Assembly (NCBI GenBank): GCA_037951105.1
Contig: JBAMJV010008471.1
Location: 1-64,000 of the forward strand
DNA from: Echinarachnius parma
Lineage: Eukaryota; Echinodermata; Echinoidea; Clypeasteroida; Echinarachniidae
DNA length: 64,000 nucleotides
Direction of reading: 5' to 3'
The first letter of the stretch is position 1. Every line of letters starts with the position of its first letter. Positions 10,691 through 63,895 of the stretch are shown in pieces. Under the pieces are notes generated by a model. The model was given only the letters and a program-made list of their open reading frames with translations, was not told the origin of the DNA and searched no databases. The position numbers were made by a program, and so were the translations under genes.

Positions 10691-10939
10691 AACCCTTGCC
10701 TATGTACAAAAATCAATGGAAAAGTCTAGATGGGGATTTCAGCATCTTGAAGGGTACGGGTTAAAATTAAGTGCATGTACCAGTAACCATCCCCATATAT
10801 TCTTTAGCTCATTACCCGATCCTCGGAACAAAAGAATTCAACACAAATCGTGCTCAACACAAATGACTCATACATTCTGTATAAATTGTGATCCATTTTT
10901 TGTACACCCTGTATGTTACACATCCATTCATCCTTTAAA

Positions 10940-10998
10940 CGATGCCAAGGATATCAGGACTGACCCAGACGAAGCCACCAAGATGGACATTAACTGAT
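10940..10998 (+). pseudogene. Decayed E1 exon copy 1
   Basis: A short block translates as DAKDIRTDPDEATKMDIN. It aligns with the E1 segment DSKDPTNDPDTPAKMDVT. Only the end of the repeated unit is recognisable, and the upstream part and splice site are lost. It lies about 196 bp before the equivalent words of decayed copy 2. Confidence 0.6.
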
Positions 10999-11059
10999 TG
11001 TGTGTTTTAAAGTGGATTTGCTTTGTGTTTTCTATGTTCTTTTGGTTATTGTATTCCAG

Positions 11060-11195
11060 GTGAAGCTACGTCAACATGAGGTGATCTGGACAACGGTCAA
11101 TTGAGTGCCACAGGAGATACCAATGAGTGCTGTAGGAGATTCTAAGGATTCTACGAACGACCCAGACACACCCGCCAAGATGGACTTAACCAACA
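11060..11195 (+). pseudogene. Decayed E1 exon copy 2
   Basis: This block begins directly after GTATTCCAG, the same 3' splice-site sequence that precedes E1 exactly 190 bp downstream. It repeats E1 words such as GAGGTGATCTGGA, GAGTGC and ACGAACGACCCAGACACACC. An in-frame stop follows within a few codons of the acceptor, and there is a net deletion relative to E1. It is therefore a non-functional duplicate of the splice acceptor plus the first third of the exon. Confidence 0.75.
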
Positions 11196-11249
11196 GGCAC
11201 AAATTAAATTTATTCTAATCATTTTTTCTGTTTTATTGTTGTATTCCAG

Positions 11250-11555
11250 GTGATAGCACAACAAATGGACCTGAAGCAACGGAAGGTGATCTAGAGAACA
11301 GCCATGTGAGTGCTGCCGCAGATTCCAAGGATCCCACGAACGACCCAGACACACCCGCCAAGATGGACGTTACAGATGGTGCTGAAGTAAACGCCAACGT
11401 GACTGCCTCGGCCACGACAGACAATGCCATTGTAGACAATGCCACAGTGACCACAGACAATGCCCAGGTGGTTGATAATGTTGAGGTGACCACCAGTCCA
11501 GAGGCCAATGCAAATCTTCCAGCAGACAGTAACGCAAATGCTCCTTCAAGAACTG
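11250..11555 (+). CDS. E1: acidic low-complexity exon of MAP7-like gene
   Basis: The exon follows TTGTTGTATTCCAG and ends at a GTACGTG donor (G|GTACGTG). It is 306 bp and enters and leaves in phase 1, so it is a symmetric exon. The reading frame is open throughout. The peptide starts DSTTNGPEATEGDLENSH and becomes Ala/Thr/Asp/Asn-rich with recurring D-N-A/D-N-V and T-T units, which suggests a disordered, negatively charged segment. I recognise no domain. It is assigned to the same gene as the downstream exons because its exit phase fits E2 and composition is similar. Two decayed duplicates lie just upstream. Earlier exons, including the start codon, were not found in the window. The gene name rests on E4 and E5 only. 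Confidence 0.7.
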
Positions 11556-12251: not shown

Positions 12252-12761
12252 CAGACAGTGACAAGGATCTCATAGAGCAAGATAGTCTTGAGGATCTAGA
12301 GCCCCTACCTGAAGCCCAAGAGGACTTGCCTCCAAGCGAGGACAAACCTCAGGCTGACGAGCCTGAGGAACTCGAAGACCCTACCCAGACAGAAGATTCA
12401 GAGAACAAAGACAGTCATCAAGATGCCATAGCTGGTGAAGAAGAAGACCCTAGAGAAGATATACAAGAGAAATCCCCAGAGTTGGTACGAGGGGAGTCCT
12501 CAGAAGGAAAGTCTCGGGACGATCCTGATGAGGATGGTGAAGCAGGAGAGGTTCAGGGTGGAAGTAACCACTCTGAGGATATCGTCCAAGGAGCAGTTCG
12601 GGATCATAACCTCCATGACTTGTCCCTGGAGTCTCATGAAGTCTCTGGAATCATGGAAGGGTCGACCCACGATCACTTTGAGGTGCCCTTCAGTCCAGCC
12701 TACTCAGAGTCCAGGACCTATGACATCCTTATTGACACGGACAGGGACTTTGGATCCGAAG
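12252..12761 (+). CDS. E2: long Glu/Asp-rich exon of MAP7-like gene
   Basis: A 510-bp exon, phase 1 in and phase 1 out, ending G|GTAACG. The peptide begins DSDKDLIEQDSLEDLEPLPE and remains very acidic for about 110 residues, with many E-D, D-P and S-E pairs, as in disordered linkers or casein-kinase target regions. The last 50 residues are more ordered in composition and include HDHFEVPFSPAYSESRTYD. The acceptor is a tandem TAGCAG: use of the first AG adds one Ala, use of the second does not, and both keep frame. Without splicing the frame would run to a stop at 12862, giving a possible retained-intron end. I recognise no domain. The open frame, composition and phase match to E1 and E3 support a real exon. 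Confidence 0.8.
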
Positions 12762-15917: not shown

Positions 15918-17803
15918 TGTATCCCCCGAACCACTTCGGGGGATACTATGGATTTGGCCTCGTCGCGCCGCCGCCGCGTCCGCCGCGTCCGCCGCAGAGA
16001 TTTTCTTGTGAACGCTCTACAGGTCCGAGTTCTTGTCCGATCATTTTCTAATTTGGTATGAAGGTGTATTAAGGAAAGAGGATGAAGCCTATTGATTTTG
16101 GTGTGGGGCGGAGTCCTGGTTGCCATGGTAACCATGATATAAAGAAATAGTTAAGATTACCTTGTGAACGCTCTACAGGTCCGAGTTCTTGTCCGATCAT
16201 TTTCTAATTTGGTATGAAGGTGTATTAAGGAAAGAGGATGAAGCCTATTGATTTTGGTGTGGGGCGGAGTCCTGGTTGCCATGGTAACCATGATATAAAG
16301 AAATAGTTAAGATTACCTTGTGAACGCTCTACAGGTCCGAGTTCTTGTCCGATCATTTTCTAATTTGGTATGAAGGTGTATTAAGGAAAGAGGATGAAGC
16401 CTATTGATTTTGGTGTGGGGCGGAGTCCTGGTTGCCATGGTAACCATGATAACCATGATATAAAGAAATAGTTAAGATTACCATGTGAACGCTCTACAGG
16501 TCCGAGTTCTTGTCCGATCGTTTTCTTATATGGTATGAAGGTGTATTAAGGAAAGAGGATGAAGCCTATTGATTTTGGTGTGGGGCGGAGTCCTGGTTGC
16601 CATGGTAACCATGATAACCATGATATAAAGAAATAGTTAAGATTACCATGTGAACGCTCTACAGGTCCGAGTTCTTGTCCGATCGTTTTCTTATTTGGTA
16701 TGAAGGTGTATTAAGGAAAGAGGATGAAGCCTATTGATTTTGGTGTGGGGCGGAGTCCTGGTTGCCATGGTAACCATGATATAAAGAAATAGTTAAGATT
16801 ACCTTGTGAACGCTCTACAGGTCCGAGTTCTTGTCCGATCATTTTCTAATTTGGTATGAAGGTGTATTAAGGAAAGAGGATGAAGCCTATTGATTTTGGT
16901 GTGGGGCGCGGTCCTGGTTGCCATGGTAACCATGATATAAATAAATAGTTAATATTACCTTGTGAACGCTCTACAGGTCCGAGTTCTTGTCCGATCATTT
17001 TCTAATTTGGTATGAAGGTGTCTTAAGGAAAGAGGATGAAGCCTTTAGATTTTGGTGTAGGGCGGAGTCCTGGTTGCCATGGTAACCATGATATAAAGAA
17101 ATAGTTAAGATTACCTTGTGAATGCTCTACAGGTCCGAGTTCTTGTCCGATCATTTTCTAATTTGGTATGAAGGTGTCTTAAGGAAAGAGGATGAAGCCT
17201 ATTGATTTTGGTGTGGGGCGGAGTCCTGGTTGCCATGGTAACCATGATATAAAGAAATAGTTAAGATTACCTTGTGAACGCTCTACAGGTCCGAGTTCTT
17301 GTCCGATCATTTTCTAATTTGGTATGAAGGTGTATTAAGGAAAGAGGATGAAGCCTTTTGATTTTGGTGTGGGGCGGAGTCCTGGTTGCCATGGTAACCA
17401 TGATATAAAGAAATAGTTAAGATTACCTTGTGAACGCTCTATAGATCCGAGTTCTTGTCTGATCATTTTCTTATTTGGTATGAAGGTGTATTAAGGAAAG
17501 AGGATGAAGCCTATTGATTTTGGTGTGGGGCGGAGTCCTGGTTGCCATGGTAACCATGATCACCATGATATAAAGAAATAGTTAAGATTACCATGTGAAC
17601 GCTCTACAGGTCCGAGTTCTTGTCCGATCGTTTTCTTATTTGGTATGAAGGTGTATTAAGGAAAGAGGATGAAGCCTATTGATTTTGGTGTGGGGCGGAT
17701 TCATCGTTGCCATGGTAACCAAGAACAACGTACACCACCAAACTTGTTCAGTTCACAATATTACAACCCACAAAAGTGCAATGCAATTGGTTCGGGGGAT
17801 ACA
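15918..17803. mobile_element. 1.9-kb inverted-repeat element carrying a minisatellite
   Basis: The left terminus TGTATCCCCCGAACCACTT is matched in inverted orientation at the right (inverted read TGTATCCCCCGAACCAATT). The left end also forms a perfect 12-bp-stem hairpin at 15919-15946. The inside is almost entirely an 11-copy tandem array. Non-autonomous elements with a tandem-repeat core and short subterminal inverted repeats are known among Helentron/DINE-like families, but I see neither a diagnostic Helitron end nor a protein. The superfamily is therefore open. Confidence 0.6.
16005..17720. repeat. Minisatellite, 156-bp unit, 11 copies
   Basis: Units start at 16005, 16161, 16317, 16482, 16647, 16803, 16959, 17115, 17271, 17427 and 17592. 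Period is exactly 156 bp, or 165 bp where a 9-bp ATAACCATG-type duplication follows GGTAACCATG. The last unit is truncated. Units contain CTCTACAGGTCCGAGTTCTT and GGTTGCCATGGTAACCATGA. Copies differ by a few percent only, so amplification or homogenisation is recent. Confidence 0.9.
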
Positions 17804-40344: not shown

Positions 40345-40443
40345 ATGGCACAGAAAGCAGAGGGACAGCGGACGCAACCTATGAGGATCTGAACACGACT
40401 GCTACCACAGACGACAACTCACCACGGCAGCGGAAAGAACCGG
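40345..40443 (+). CDS. E3: short exon of MAP7-like gene
   Basis: A 99-bp exon after TTTCTTGTCGTTCAG, ending CCG-G|GTATAC. It enters and leaves in phase 1, completing an Asp codon from E2 and giving the first base of a Val codon to E4. The peptide is GTESRGTADATYEDLN followed by a Thr/Asp-rich stretch and a basic end RQRKEP. I recognise no domain; it looks like a flexible link between the acidic N-terminal region and the basic helix. Its acceptor resembles the E4 acceptor (TTCTTGTCGTTC words), perhaps from shared ancestry. Support comes from the phase match on both sides and an open frame. Confidence 0.65.
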
Positions 40444-40710
40444 GTATACATAGCCACTTTTCATTTGTACTTTTTGCTTTGTAGTATTGCTGTTAGTGAC
40501 TATGCCTTAATAGAACTGAGTATATAGCCCCTTTCCACTCTTACTTAGCGACTACGCCTAGAAAGAACCGAGTATATCCACTTTTCATTCCTCCTTTTGG
40601 TTTGTAGTATTGTTGTTAGCGACTACGCCTAAAAAGAACCGGGTATACATAGCCACTTTTCATTCTTACTTTTGCTTTGTATTATTGTTGTTGTTAGCGA
40701 CTACGCGTAA
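40434..40710 (+). repeat. Tandem repeat of the E3 5' splice site
   Basis: The E3 end plus donor (AAAGAACCGGGTATACATAG) and following intron words (CCACTTTTCATT, TTTGCTTTGTAGTATTG, TTAGCGACTACGCCTA) recur at 40438, 40513, 40565 and 40636, with spacings of 75, 52 and 71 bp. The copy at 40629-40650 preserves the donor-like sequence exactly. Confidence 0.8.
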
Positions 40711-41256: not shown

Positions 41257-41292
41257 CATGATTATCGTTTCTTGTCATTCTTTTTGGTTCAG

Positions 41293-41411
41293 TGCTAGAC
41301 GTGTCCAAGCTGAAAGAGCGCGAGGACAGGAGTGCGGGCAACAGACAAGCTCGCCTGCAGAAGAAGTCGGGTGACGTGAAGGAGAGGAACGGGCAGAGGA
41401 TGTCCAACTAA
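41293..41411 (+). CDS. E4 array copy 1 (truncated exon candidate)
   Basis: Acceptor TTTTTGGTTCAG. The frame reads LDVSKLKEREDRSAGNRQ, continues with the ARLQKKSG block and ends RMSN-stop. A weak internal donor G|GTGACG after the KKS codons would give a 78-bp phase 1-1 mini-exon. If spliced in without that donor it would truncate the protein. Its upstream flank is the most diverged of the eight, as expected of the outer edge. Confidence 0.4.
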
Positions 41412-41483
41412 CATCATTCATCCACTCTCAATAATAGAATTCATCATAATGATTGTTGTTTCCTGTCGTTCTTCTTGGTTCAG

Positions 41484-41602
41484 TGCTAGACGCGTCCAAG
41501 CTGAAAGAGCACGAGGACAGGAGTTCCGGCAACAGACGAGCTCACCTGCATAAGAAGTCTGGTGACGTGAAGGAGAGGAACGGGCAGAGCATGTCCAACT
41601 AA
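41484..41602 (+). CDS. E4 array copy 2 (truncated exon candidate)
   Basis: Same layout as copy 1, with acceptor CTTCTTGGTTCAG. The frame differs from E4 by KEHED for KERED and LHKK for LQKK, and ends SMSN-stop. The weak internal donor reads G|GTGACG. Confidence 0.4.
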
Positions 41603-41674
41603 CATCATTCATCCACTCTCAATAATAGAATTCATCAAATTGATTGTTGTTTCTTGTCGTTCTTCTTGGTTCAG

Positions 41675-41793
41675 TGCTAGACGCGTCCAAGCTGAAAGAG
41701 CGCGAGGACAGGAGTTACGGCAACAGACAAGCTCGCCTGCAGAAGAAGTCGGGTGACCGAAAGGAGAGGAACGGGCAGAGCATGTCCAACTAA
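41675..41793 (+). CDS. E4 array copy 3 (truncated exon candidate)
   Basis: Frame with RSYGNRQARLQKKSGDRKER, ending SMSN-stop. The weak internal donor is G|GTGACC. No indels relative to E4 within the shared part. Confidence 0.4.
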
Positions 41794-41865
41794 CATCATT
41801 CATCCACTCTCAATAATAGAATTCATCATAATGGTTGTTGTTTCTTGTCGTTCTTCTTGGTTCAG

Positions 41866-41984
41866 TGCTAGACGCGTCCAAGCTGAAAGAGCGTGAGGAC
41901 AGGAGTTCCGGCAACAGACGAGCTCGCCTGCAGAAGAAGTCGGGTGACCGAAAGGAGAGGAAAGGGCAGAGCATGTCCAAGTAA
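41866..41984 (+). CDS. E4 array copy 4 (truncated exon candidate)
   Basis: Frame with RSSGNRRARLQKKSGDRKER, ending SMSK-stop. Shares the GDRKER variant with copy 3, suggesting these two are close duplicates. Confidence 0.4.
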
Positions 41985-42056
41985 CATCATTCATCCACTC
42001 TCAATAATAGAATTCATCAAATTGATTGTTGTTTCTTGTCGTTCTTCTTGGTTCAG

Positions 42057-42175
42057 TGCTAGACGCGTCCAAGCTGAAAGAGCGCGAGGACAGGAGTTCC
42101 GGCAACAGACGAGCTCACCTGCAGAAGAAGTCAGGTGACCTGAAGGAGAGGAACGGGCAGAGCATGTCCAACTAA
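42057..42175 (+). CDS. E4 array copy 5 (truncated exon candidate)
   Basis: The peptide is identical to E4 over LDASKLKEREDRSSGNRRAH and the following LQKKSGDLKERN, apart from the truncated end GQSMSN-stop. It is the copy closest to E4 in protein sequence. Confidence 0.4.
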
Positions 42176-42247
42176 CATCATTCATCCACTCTCAATAATA
42201 GAATTCATCATAATGGTTGTTGTTTCTTGTCGTTCTTCTTGGTTCAG

Positions 42248-42366
42248 TGCTAGACGCGTCCAAGTTGAAAGAGCGCGAGGACAGGAGTTCCGGCAACAGA
42301 CGAGCTCACCTGCAGAAGAAGTTGGGTGACCTGAAGGAGAGGAATGGGCAGAACATGTTCAACTAA
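42248..42366 (+). CDS. E4 array copy 6 (truncated exon candidate)
   Basis: Frame as copy 5 except KKLGD for KKSGD and an end QNMFN-stop. Confidence 0.4.
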
Positions 42367-42438
42367 CATCATTTACCCACTCTCAATAATAGAATTCATC
42401 AAATTGAATGTTGTTTCTTGTCATTCTTCTTGGTTCAG

Positions 42439-42557
42439 TGCTAGACGCGTCCAAGCTGAAAGAGCGCGAGGACAGGAGTTCCAGCAACAGAAGAGCTCAC
42501 CTGCAGAAGAAGTCAGGTGACCTGAAAGAGAGGAACAAGCAGAGCATGTCCACTTAA
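42439..42557 (+). CDS. E4 array copy 7 (truncated exon candidate)
   Basis: Frame as E4 except RSSSNRR and an end NKQSMST-stop. It shares intron words with E4 (CATTTACCCACT-like, ATCAAATTGAATGTTG) that separate copies 6-8 from the others. Confidence 0.4.
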
Positions 42558-42629
42558 CATCCTTTACCCACTGTCAATAGTAGAATTCATCAAATTGAAT
42601 GTTGTTTCTTGTCGTTCTTCTTGGTTCAG

Positions 42630-42784
42630 TGCTTGACGCATCCAAGCTGAAAGAGCGCGAGGATAGGAGTTCCGGCAACAGACGAGCTCACCTGCAGAAG
42701 AAGTCGGGTGACCTGAAAGAGAGGAACGAGCAGAGGAGAATGGCTGCTGAGGAACGGAGGCGGCAACAGGACGCCGCAGACAAG
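42630..42784 (+). CDS. MAP7: E4: MAP7-type basic/acidic helix exon, full-length copy
   Basis: A 155-bp exon: acceptor TTCTTGGTTCAG, phase 1 in, phase 0 out, donor GACAAG|GTTTGT. The peptide is very rich in K, R and E and ends EERRRQQDAADK, with no Pro after its start, so it should form a long charged alpha-helix. Together with the start of E5 it resembles the end of the microtubule-binding helix of MAP7/ensconsin proteins, where a RRR-A-A-V-E-E-KRR-like block is followed by a D-K-E-R-like block and an R-W-S-W motif. Such proteins bind microtubules and recruit kinesin-1. It is the eighth unit of a tandem exon array and the only one with the full coding continuation and a good donor. The family call is by eye. 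Confidence 0.78.
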
Positions 42785-43192: not shown

Positions 43193-43616
43193 TTAAAGGG
43201 GACCACCAGGCAAAGAACAACACATAATTATATGTTTTGGTACCGTTTTGTGATATCAAATAGATACCCAACATTTTGCAAAGGGTTGTGTAAATTCACA
43301 AATAAAGCAATAAATTACCACCACTTTATACAGAACCACTATTATTTCCTGGTTCCGTACGAGCCAAACATTTGCGAGTGTGCCAAAGCTATTCACGCGT
43401 ACATTTGGAGACACTAGAATCCCGGACGATTCGTTCGCTCTGGACATATGAACACATGCAGACCCATGAACGCATGCTTTAGAATGGTGATACGTTTTTC
43501 CAATTATATATTTTTTTTTCTGGAAACATTTTTGTGAACTTGTTGATGGAATGGACTACTAAAGATGTTACCTTTCATTTATAATGATATTATTTTTGGG
43601 TGGTGGTACCCTTTAA
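43193..43616 (+). mobile_element. TTAA-flanked MITE, family 2, copy 1
   Basis: Left end TTAAAGGGGACCACCAGGCA; right end GGTGGTACCCTTTAA, with AGGG-N-ACCACCA as the terminal inverted repeat. 424 bp. Its inverted partner lies at 44098-44528. Confidence 0.85.
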
Positions 43617-43649
43617 GTTCTGATTTTAAGTTCCATGGGAATGTTAATA

Positions 43650-43691
43650 AGTAGAAACAAGCAGGGGAGAATGCAGAACGCCACAGACACA
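43650..43691 (+). pseudogene. Decayed E4-like exon copy i
   Basis: AGAAACAAGCAGGGGAGAAT followed by GCAGAACGCCACAGACAC aligns with the E4 words AACGAGCAGAGGAGAATGG and CAGGACGCCGCAGACAAG, with the middle deleted. It is cut on the right by a foldback element. Confidence 0.6.
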
Positions 43692-44012
43692 CTGGCCCGG
43701 ATTCACAACTGAGGTTTGTACAAACCATGGTTTAAACCATGGTCTACATCTATGGAGTGCTGCTCGTATACAAGTAAAACAATTTCTTATTTCTAATTAC
43801 ATGACTGTAGATCTTGCTAATCAGCAAATTTTCACCATCTGAGAAGACAAACATTTATTTGGTGCATTCAGTAAATGTGTACCATCAACATTGTTAACAA
43901 TTAAGGAGTTTATATTCTTTCTCCATCAGTCTACAAATGGCACTCCATAGATGAAACCATGGTTTGAACCATGGTTTGTACAAACCTCCTTTGTGAATTC
44001 CACCCACTGGGT
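43692..44012. mobile_element. Foldback element with ACCATGGTTTAAACCATGGT
   Basis: The left arm GGCCCGGATTCACAACTGAG then GGTTTGTACAAACCATGG is mirrored at the right (CCATGGTTTGTACAAACC, TTTGTGAATTCCACCC). Arms also contain a 20-bp palindrome. Size is about 320 bp with no ORF. CACTG occurs at both flanks and may be part of a target duplication. Confidence 0.65.
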
Positions 44013-44097
44013 AACATAAATACAACTCAAAGAGAACAAGTGATTAGTCTGCTTTTGGGACTAGTATTAGCCATTAGAATAAACTCCTGATTTTAAG

Positions 44098-44528
44098 TTA
44101 AAGGGTACCATCACCCCAAAATAATATTCTTATAAATGAAAGGTAACATCTTTAGTAGTCCATTCCATCAACAAGTTCACAAAAATATGTTTCCAGGAAG
44201 AAAAAACAAATATAATTGGAAAATGCATCATTCTAAAGCACTCATTCACGGGTCTGCATGTACGAGACTACTTTGTCCAGAGCGAACGAATCGTCCGGGA
44301 TTCTATTGTCTCCAAACGTACGCTTGAATAGCATTGGCGCACTCACAAATGTTTGGCCCGTACGGAACCAGGAAATAATAGTGGTTCCGTAAGTGGTGGT
44401 AATTAATTGCTTTGTTTATGAATTACACAACCCTTTGCGAAATGTTGGGTATCTATTTGATATCACAAAACGGTACCAAAACATATAATTATAAAATGTG
44501 TTGTTCTTTGCCTGGTGGTCCCCTTTAA
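44098..44528 (-). mobile_element. TTAA-flanked MITE, family 2, copy 2
   Basis: Inverted relative to 43193-43616: left TTAAAGGGTACCATCACCCC, right CCTGGTGGTCCCCTTTAA. Sequence agreement with copy 1 is high over the whole length, so a transcript across both could form a hairpin with arms of about 425 bp. Confidence 0.85.
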
Positions 44529-44738
44529 TGGCAATGTTTGTAAAGATACCTGAGGAAAGGGTGCAGGTAGAGGCACCGGCGCCGATTCCATCCGAAAAGA
44601 CAATGCATCATTGTTTGTGAACAATGCTCTGCCCCCCCAATGCATTGTGTTTTCGGATGGAATCGGCGCCAGTGGGTAGAGGAGATTGGCTGGCAAGGAC
44701 CATAGCCGGCAACAGGACGTGGCAGACAATATGGGTTA
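44529..44738 (+). pseudogene. Decayed E4-like exon copy ii, interrupted
   Basis: 44675-44738 (GGTAGAGGAGATTGGCTGGC, then CGGCAACAGGACGTGGCAGA) aligns without gaps over about 20 codons with the 3' half of E4 (GCAGAGGAGAATGGCTGCTG, CGGCAACAGGACGCCGCAGA). An in-frame TAG precedes it and the donor is lost. The left part (44529-44573) matches weakly. A 101-bp MITE splits the copy. Confidence 0.7.
44574..44674. mobile_element. 101-bp palindromic hAT-like MITE
   Basis: Starts CACCGGCGCCGATTCCATCC and ends inverted (GGAATCGGCGCCAGTG). Arms of about 31 bp have one mismatch. The octamer GGTAGAGG flanks both sides (44566-44573 and 44675-44682). Removing the element restores the alignment of the decayed exon copy to E4, which independently supports insertion. 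Confidence 0.85.
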
Positions 44739-45122: not shown

Positions 45123-45558
45123 GAGCGCAAGGATGCGATACTAGCAAAGTCAAAGGACAGAGAGGATGTGAGCCGATTCACCCGCGAGAAGCGTCGGTCA
45201 TGGAGTGCGTTTGGGGCGCGGGGGGAAGCGAGCACGCCGACCCCCAGTGCCTCCATGCCGCGGGGGCGCAGCTCCGACCGGCTGACCTCCTCGGCCAAAG
45301 GTCGCTCGTCCACAAACCTGACCGGGTCCAAACAACTCTCCAGCTCCGTCTCCAACATCTACCACCGCTCGGTCAAGCTCGTGCGGCTCGGCCCCAACGA
45401 CGATGACTGGTTTGAGATGCACGTGCCGGAACAAAGTAAGAATTTGGGCGTGCCTGAGCGCCCGCCCTGGGATCCGTGTCGTTCGCCTGTCGGTTCGCCT
45501 GTCGACGCATTGCGCTCGTCATCACCCGGCCACCACCGATCCACCCCAAACCTTGCAT
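45123..45558 (+). CDS. MAP7: E5: MAP7-type exon with RRSWS motif and Ser/Pro-rich tail
   Basis: A 436-bp exon: acceptor CCCAATCATCAG, phase 0 in to match E4, phase 1 out at a GTAAGC donor. It begins ERKDAILAKSKDREDVSRFT and continues EKRRSWSAFGARG, which matches the MAP7 pattern of a K-E-R-x-x-A helix end followed by an R-W-S-W-G-like motif. A disordered basic Ser/Thr/Pro region follows with RSSDRL, SSTNL, VRLGPNDDDWFEMHVPE and STPNLA blocks. These resemble the phospho-rich linker after the microtubule-binding helix of this family. Base composition is much richer in GC than the surroundings. A second donor A|GTAAGA at 45436, also phase 1, would remove the last 41 codons. The following exon was not found. 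Confidence 0.85.
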
Positions 45559-51020: not shown

Positions 51021-51452
51021 CTTGTCTTAGTAGAAAGTCGTGCATGTAGAATATTTACTATTGTTGTGGAATTAAAAATCTTGATTTATAACATTATGTT
51101 TGAATGGTCGCAAATCTATTATAAACTACCTGACCAAATCTTATTGTTTCTCTTATTAAGTATGTGTATTTATTTTCATATTGTTTTAAGAGTTTCAAAT
51201 TCAATTGATACATCATGAGCCTGTGCATGTACAATGTATTTTTGTCTTCTTCTTCATGATGAAAGTTAATGTTTGACAGGTTTGAGCATGAATACGTATT
51301 CAAAGTTTCATATTGAAGTTGTCGTGATACCAATGATATTGTTTGTTGAACTAATTTGCTGTTAATAGGGTAATATAAATCCTATAAATCATGAAAGTGT
51401 CTTGGTGGTATCATGGCCGGATATAGATTATTTTAATACATTACTACTTGTT

Positions 51453-51745
51453 ACTTCAGCCTTTCCCTCCTCCTTTACTTCAGCCTTTCCCTCCTCCTTT
51501 ACTTCAGCCTTTCCCTCCTCCTTTACTTCAGCCTTTCCCTCCTCCTTTACTTCAGCCTTTCCCTCCTCCTTTACTTCAGCCTTTCCCTCCTCCTTTACTT
51601 CAGCCTTTCCCTCCTCCTTTACTTCAGCCTTTCCCTCCTCCTTTACTTCAGCCTTTCCCTCCTCCTTTACTTCAGCCTTTCCCTCCTCCTTTACTTCAGC
51701 CTTTCCCTCCTCCTTTACTTCAGCCTTTCCCTCCTCCTTTACTTC
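51453..51745. repeat. 24-bp minisatellite, 12 perfect copies
   Basis: The unit ACTTCAGCCTTTCCCTCCTC plus CTTT repeats 12 times, with starts every 24 bp from about 51457 to 51721 and no visible mismatch. Each unit is pyrimidine-rich on the + strand. Because 24 is divisible by three, it opens ORFs of 145-148 codons (TSAFPSSF and LLQPFPPP repeats). These are repeat-driven and lack splice or start support. Confidence 0.95.
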
Positions 51746-62756: not shown

Positions 62757-63895
62757 GCGGCCATCTTGGATTTTCAAAATGGCCGCCATAACAATAGGTG
62801 TTTCTCATTATCTCAGCTTCCAGGTGGCCTAGAGTAATGATTTGAACGACTAAACATATGTTTTCATGGATGGGGAAGACAGTGGTACAATGTAAAATAA
62901 GATAAACATAACCACAAAGCGGCCATCTTGGATTTTCAAAATGGCCGCCTTGAAAATCAGTGTTTTTCAATATTTCAGCATTCAAGTGGCCTAGAGTAAT
63001 GATTTTAATGGCTACACATATGTTTTCAGGGATGGGGAAGACAGTGGTACAATGTAAAATAAGATAAACATAACCACAAAGCGGCCATCTTGGATTTTCA
63101 AAATGGCCGCCTTGAAAATCAGTGTTTTTCAATATTTCAGCATTCAAGTGGCCTAGAGTAATGATTTTAATGGCTACACATATGTTTTCAGGGATGGGGA
63201 AGACTGTGGTACAATGTAAAATAAGATAAACATAACCACAAAGCGGCCATCTTGGATTTTCAAAATGGCCGCCTTGAAAATCCGTGTTTTTCAATATTTC
63301 AGCATTCATGTGGCCTAGAGTCATGATTATAACGGCTAAACATCCATTTTCAGGGACTAGGAGGCCAGTGGAACAATGTAAAATTAGTCAAACATAAGGT
63401 TCCATAAAGCGGCCATCTTGGATTTTCAAAATGGCCATCTTGAAAATCAGTGTTTTTCAATATCTCAGCATCTAAGTGGCCTAGAGTCATGATTTTAATG
63501 GCTAAACATACATTTTCAGGGATTTGGAAGCCAGTGGTATGAATTAAAATACCGTAAGCTACACACAACCACAAAGCGGCCATCTTGGATTTTCAAAATG
63601 GCCACGAAAATGTGTTTTGTTTCACTATTTCGGCATGCAAGTGGCGTAAAGTCATGATTTTAACGGCTAAACACACATTTTCAGGGATGAGGAAACCAGG
63701 CATGGTACAAAGTAAATGAATCTAAACATTACCCAAAAGTGGCCATCTTGGATTTTCAAAATGTCCACCTTGAAAATACGTTTTTTTCTCACTATTTCAG
63801 CATCCAAGTGGCTTAGAGTCATGATTTTAATTGGTAAACATACATTTTCAAGATGAGGAAGCCAGTGGTTTAAAGTAAAGTAAGGTTAACATGGA
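62757..63895. repeat. 162-bp satellite-like array, seven units
   Basis: GCGGCCATCTTGGATTTTCA recurs at 62757, 62919, 63081, 63243, 63409, 63575 and 63739. The first four steps are exactly 162 bp; later ones are 164-166 bp and more diverged. Units share AAATGGCCGCCTTGAAAATC and AAGTGGCCTAGAGTAATGAT. A minus-strand ORF (62752-63324) encodes 54-residue repeats only because 162 is divisible by three. It closes where spacing changes, so I treat it as a by-product. Confidence 0.92.

Follow-up and report, generated by a model that had tools for sequence, protein, structure and literature searches.

Within the window, by which we mean the whole analysed stretch of 64 000 nt, we observed five predicted exons on the plus strand, the fourth of which is the last copy of a long tandem array. 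The features are as follows (slashes mark the exon–intron border of a splice site):

11250-11555, plus strand: exon A, predicted, 306 nt, phase 1-1
12252-12761, plus strand: exon B, predicted, 510 nt, phase 1-1
40345-40443, plus strand: exon E3, predicted from sequence, 99 nt, phase 1-1, donor CGG/GTATAC
41257-42735, plus strand: 191-bp array of eight 143-nt cores and seven 48-nt spacers
42630-42784, plus strand: exon E4, the last array copy, 155 nt, phase 1 in and 0 out, donor AAG/GTTTGT
45123-45558, plus strand: exon E5, predicted from sequence, 436 nt, in phase with E4

The predicted exons A to E5 join in phase and read open (with the end of E5 placed two bases later in that reading). Some 27.6 kb separates exons A and B from E3 downstream; judged from phase only, A and B would belong to the same gene as E3 to E5, which may extend beyond the window. 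An earlier note on this DNA had called the gene MAP7-like. We aligned the predicted protein with human MAP7 and with MAP7D1 and ranked each alignment against 500 shuffles. E4 and E5 together scored Z 10.2 against MAP7 and Z 9.4 against MAP7D1 (0 of 500 shuffles as good in either case), and E4 alone reached Z 6.3 against MAP7. E5 alone was not significant, as 19 (MAP7) and 27 (MAP7D1) of the 500 shuffles aligned as well. The microtubule-binding domain of human MAP7 is described as a helix of about 130 Å that lies along the protofilament (PMC10908866, PMC10232616). The predicted protein would resemble this MAP7/ensconsin helix in being charged and long, with E4 and E5 aligning to the C-terminal half of the human helix, whereas a single copy of E4 does not reach the length of the human helix region. 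An AlphaFold2 model of E4 (51 residues, computed without alignment) gave one helix with a mean pLDDT of 89 and a pTM of 0.44. The Pfam search yielded no family above the cut-off and the PDB search no relative, both for E3–E5 and for the whole predicted chain; the only PDB match listed was an antibody (E 1.2). The MAP7 domain of Pfam is the C-terminal, kinesin-binding one, and a crude scan of 45.6-64 kb found no charge-rich segments. Weighing the alignments to MAP7 and the helix model of E4 against the lack of a Pfam or PDB relative, we consider a MAP7-like gene probable, not proved. The assignment made in the earlier note is moderately supported: E4+E5 and E4 speak for it, whereas E5 alone, Pfam and PDB speak against it. 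Searches of this locus against tRNA models and Rfam returned no match, a DNA pattern search in viral contigs found 0 relatives, and none of 75 pattern matches to E5 in prokaryote genome contigs was a relative. The top-ranking literature matches listed contained no description of this array in a MAP7 gene.

The array extends over 7.74 units. Tandem Repeats Finder reported it at 41258-42735 with period 191, 7.7 copies, 93% matches and 0% indels, and the repeat search gave a spacing of exactly 191 six times in succession. The motif TTGGTTCAG occurs eight times on the plus strand of the window, every time inside the array and in 191-bp steps, which places the exon starts at 41293, 41484, 41675, 41866, 42057, 42248, 42439 and 42630, as had been proposed. 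Each 143-nt core comprises 36 nt of intron end (polypyrimidine tract, CAG) followed by 107 nt of exonic sequence from the start of E4. The alignment of the copies and the splice-site scores support the earlier claim that the duplicated unit spans the intron–exon boundary, so that each copy carries its own acceptor. What is observed directly is the repeat together with its register and edges. The 48-nt spacer was found at seven places in the window, all of them within the array. An origin of the spacer from intron sequence of the left flank was not supported, as 919 of 1000 shuffles aligned equally well. In copies 1-7 an open frame of 39 codons, which includes the codon shared with the preceding exon (about 38 had been noted), ends in an identical stop; only in copy 8 does the frame remain open into the complete exon E4.

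Pairwise identity among the eight copies ranges from 85.9 to 96.9%, with 44 variable columns and no indel. Differences at 44 columns mean that the copies did not simply arise from one read duplicated. An assembly artefact, or a real but shorter array whose copy number was collapsed or expanded, therefore appears very improbable to us, although the amphioxus repeats discussed below are reported with copy numbers that are wrong or differ between assemblies (PMC3087553, PMC3902484). Mean identity to the remaining copies is 0.887, 0.910 and 0.913 for copies 1, 7 and 8 and 0.920-0.944 for copies 2-6. Identity drops as the distance between copies grows, and the edge copies are the least alike, which supports the homogenisation that had been suggested. 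In 41257-42592, of the 44 changes inferred for copies 1-7, 14 affect consensus CpG positions (n = 18), as expected for methylated CpG. In a fixed-step comparison we counted 0 gap runs per 76 mismatches in the array versus 60 per 269 in seven other arrays of the window. The earlier description of an indel-free array is correct; however, this is not unique, as three other Tandem Repeats Finder rows with a period of at least 50 (two of which overlap) also show 0% indels. Absence of indels as a proof of selection was set aside for this reason and because the non-exonic part of the unit is indel-free too. The window as a whole is minisatellite-rich (G+C 37.4%), with other large tandem arrays at 15998-17721 (156 bp x 10.9) and 62757-63892 (162 bp x 6.9). 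At 51451-51745 we observed a perfect 24-bp repeat (12.3 copies, 100% matches), which on the minus strand encodes KEEGKAEV within an open frame of 125 codons.

Tandem repeats of this make-up, termed 'mirages', have been described from cephalochordates, namely in the amphioxus genes for Adh3, the globins BflGb6 and BflGb9, TnC and PGBD5 (PMC3087553, PMC3902484). The BflGb6 unit of 150-160 bp consists of intron end and exon start, is present 6 and 3 times in two haplotypes with 81-100% identity, and is homogenised inside with the edges excluded (PMC3087553). RT-PCR is reported to have shown regular splicing for the globin mirages (PMC3087553), and the published mirages are described as without effect on regular splicing (PMC3087553, PMC3902484). 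The lancelet PGBD5 gene is reported to contain more such repeats, two of which were made into an extra exon by annotation; the authors omitted this exon, for which confirmation was lacking (PMC3902484). The array shares with the amphioxus cases the minisatellite-like tandem units across an intron–exon boundary, which lie on the 3' or 5' side there. It differs from them by its eight acceptor copies, the absence of indels, the 48-nt spacer, a candidate in-frame exon of 78 nt in every unit and a second array at the donor side of the same intron; furthermore, globin splicing was seen by RT-PCR, while that of the array is predicted from DNA sequence.

As the array agrees with the published mirages in make-up and edge behaviour, we filed it as a mirage of which the last copy would normally be used, and this is the reading we lean towards. 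It is favoured by the authentic complete exon at one array edge (copy 8, 42630-42784), by a tandem unit that includes the intron–exon boundary, by edge copies that are the most diverged around a homogenised inside, and by two other boundary duplications on this strand, one at the donor of E3 and one at the acceptor of exon A. A minisatellite-like tandem duplication across the 3' end of the intron and the start of E4 in the probable MAP7-like gene would underlie the array; unequal exchange would have built it and homogenised its inside, while the edge copies drift. To judge from the published mirages, the spliceosome would normally join E3 to copy 8, and copies 1-7 would leave with the intron. 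We take copy 8 to be the one used because no other copy extends to the complete exon. That copies 1-7 are simply skipped is not self-evident, however, as their acceptors reach the score of the copy 8 acceptor in our splice-site scoring, for which a generic weight matrix was used.

Two further boundary duplications and a decayed copy from E4 lie on the same strand:

10941-11188, plus strand: decayed acceptor-side duplication upstream of exon A, with a copy at 11037-11188 and a fragment at 10941-11002
40433-40710, plus strand: donor-side boundary array at E3, about four imperfect copies of about 50-77 nt, with indels
44678-44729, plus strand: decayed duplicate of 3' E4 sequence (42732-42783) in the following intron, 81% identical, 0 of 500 shuffles as good

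The copies at E3 consist of the last ~11 nt of E3, the donor and the intron start, and the E3–E4 intron has boundary minisatellites at both of its ends. Upstream of exon A, the copy scored 109 (shuffle maximum 25) and the fragment 52 (27); the copy carries indels and is interrupted by a stop when read in the frame expected. The region 10927-11373 can be described as three tandem copies of exon start plus acceptor, spaced by 197 and 183 nt, of which only the last (exon A) is open. At 43653-43673 there may be another fragment of the E4 tail, but its match is marginal, being equalled by 2 of 500 shuffles. From the duplications at E3, exon A and the E4 tail we conclude that this locus tends to duplicate its boundaries and that other copies have decayed. 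Downstream of E4 there are also two copies of about 430 bp in opposite orientation (43193-43619 and 44095-44528, 88% identical), which enclose a smaller inverted repeat (43701-43760 and 43940-43998); these inverted copies (43193-44528) look like short inverted-repeat transposons near TTAA.

Inspection of the exonic part revealed a feature that the earlier note did not mention: a GTGAC lies exactly 78 nt past the acceptor in eight of eight copies. Only the last unit had been credited with the full exon and a good donor; the full exon holds for copy 8 alone, but the good donor does not, as all eight copies have the GTGAC. In the seven upstream copies this delimits the following candidate mini-exons:

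41293-41370, plus strand: candidate mini-exon 1, acceptor TTCAG/, donor CGG/GTGACG
41484-41561, plus strand: candidate mini-exon 2, donor CTG/GTGACG
41675-41752, plus strand: candidate mini-exon 3, donor CGG/GTGACC
41866-41943, plus strand: candidate mini-exon 4, donor CGG/GTGACC
42057-42134, plus strand: candidate mini-exon 5, donor CAG/GTGACC, among the two best-scoring
42248-42325, plus strand: candidate mini-exon 6, donor TGG/GTGACC, the weakest
42439-42516, plus strand: candidate mini-exon 7, donor CAG/GTGACC, among the two best-scoring

With the generic matrix the donor-like sites of copies 1 to 8 scored 7.0, 6.6, 6.7, 6.7, 8.3, 4.4, 8.3 and 6.7, and the donors of E4 and E3 scored 4.1 and 3.1. 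The 78 nt correspond to 26 codons with phase 1 at both ends, and they contain neither stop nor indel in any of the eight copies. Since the GTGAC follows the acceptor by 78 nt in every unit, each unit can be a complete, symmetric, stop-free exon of 26 codons. The frames of about 38 codons in copies 1-7, if used, would only truncate the product; it is through the 78-nt in-frame reading that copy choice, as raised in the earlier note, could matter to the protein. For a mirage this in-frame exit means that occasional inclusion of a copy would add 26 residues and not a stop, and such harmless accidental inclusion may explain why so many good acceptors are tolerated.

If the acceptors of copies 1-7 were used without the mini-donor, the reading would stop after 39 codons, and truncation or decay would lower expression, the array acting as a series of poison exons. 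Such a function is compatible with seven acceptors that match the real one in strength, each followed by an identical stop. However, it needs a donor past the stop, and copies 1-7 have neither the E4 donor nor a common strong GT there; moreover, seven traps would be costly, and we regard this function as improbable.

A further reading takes the copies as a chain of seven nascent introns, in which copies 1-7 are spliced as 78-nt mini-exons of phase 1-1. Each of these introns would measure 113 nt and would run from the GTGAC donor within the exonic sequence of one copy to the acceptor of the copy that follows. Every copy used would add 26 residues (VLDASKLKEREDRSSGNRRAHLQKKS), so that helix length could vary by transcript. 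Such splicing is possible but in our view doubtful. In its favour, an in-frame donor is present in the exonic part of seven of seven upstream copies, acceptor AG and GTGAC are kept in all eight, exons A, B and E3 are likewise of phase 1-1, and the joined reading of E3, seven mini-exons, E4 and E5 is open. On the other hand, all copies have a C at donor position +5, and their donor-like site descends from that of copy 8. Equally strong in-frame sites are not rare: in the 1506 nt of the five predicted exons we counted seven sites scoring at least 6.65, four of them in frame, including one right at an exon start. By chance alone, AG and GT would be intact with P 0.50 and a stop would be absent with P 0.46. 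The idea that one extra mini-exon restores the vertebrate helix length was rejected, as the match to human MAP7 was equalled with 427 of 1000 shuffled mini-exons.

For evaluation of constraint we compared variation among copies 1-7 inside and outside the 78 nt. Non-CpG positions are variable at 5 of 64 sites in the 78 nt versus 24 of 109 elsewhere (Fisher P 0.020); when CpG is defined more widely, the counts are 3 of 61 versus 21 of 104 (P 0.006). The lower variation persisted in a stratified permutation (P 0.013; P 0.01 with G+C strata added), but with fewer copies the test gave P 0.18 (copies 2-6) and P 0.07 (copies 1-6), both of which count against constraint and the former also against a chain of nascent introns. 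An unguided circular scan with the wider CpG definition placed the least variable stretch at -26..+82 (P 0.026), i.e. the tract, the exon and the first five donor bases; with consensus CpG it was located at -20..+40 (P 0.025). A block of -20..+83 gave P <0.001 but, unlike the 78-nt block and the scan, was chosen after the site counts had been seen. Both scan minima favour the nascent introns, and lowered variation from the polypyrimidine tract to the mini-donor is not predicted by the pure decay of a mirage; the lack of indels where the seven other window arrays have many also speaks against a mirage. Codon changes give a different picture. In the 78 nt of copies 1-7 we found 9 nonsynonymous and 6 synonymous changes and no stop, and neutral simulation gave means of 9.6, 4.7 and 0.75, respectively. 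The codon test therefore fits neutrality (P of at least 6 synonymous changes = 0.31), which agrees with a mirage and counts against nascent introns. The pN/pS ratio (Nei–Gojobori-type, without CpG correction) is 0.39 over eight copies and 0.53 over the 35 codons of copies 1-7, values that stand against a mirage in their uncorrected form. Coding constraint on the mini-exon is suggestive only.

A precedent in kind for such introns comes from the potato RdRp gene, where an intron is reported to have been gained when an intron end was duplicated along with the adjoining exon start, exonic sequence of the upstream copy supplying the new donor (PMC4974935). Both cases involve a tandem duplication across the 3' boundary and a donor in the upstream copy; in contrast, the potato intron goes back to one duplication and is documented by RNA reads, while the sand dollar array has seven in series, seen at the DNA level. 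Homologous exons in series within one gene are also described for tandem exon duplications and mutually exclusive exons of Dscam1 and others (PMC9013439). The array differs from these in that copies 1-7 hold the exon start only and would be cassette-like or additive (phase 1-1) if spliced, and in that the last exon is of phase 1-0 and needed.

In tau, repeat exons set the repeat number. By nascent introns, genomic copy number and splicing choice could likewise set the length of the microtubule-binding helix, in steps of 26 residues, an outcome that we consider unlikely though conceivable. If the copies are merely skipped, as we would expect of a mirage, the array is one more, unusually regular mirage, and an example of how splicing can adhere to a single acceptor among eight that are nearly identical. 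Were the copies spliced instead, the locus would present intron gain in progress, seven times at one place and with all intermediates present, and the donor strength that turns a fragment into an exon could be read from six natural donor contexts (CGG, CTG, CAG or TGG with GTGACC or GTGACG).
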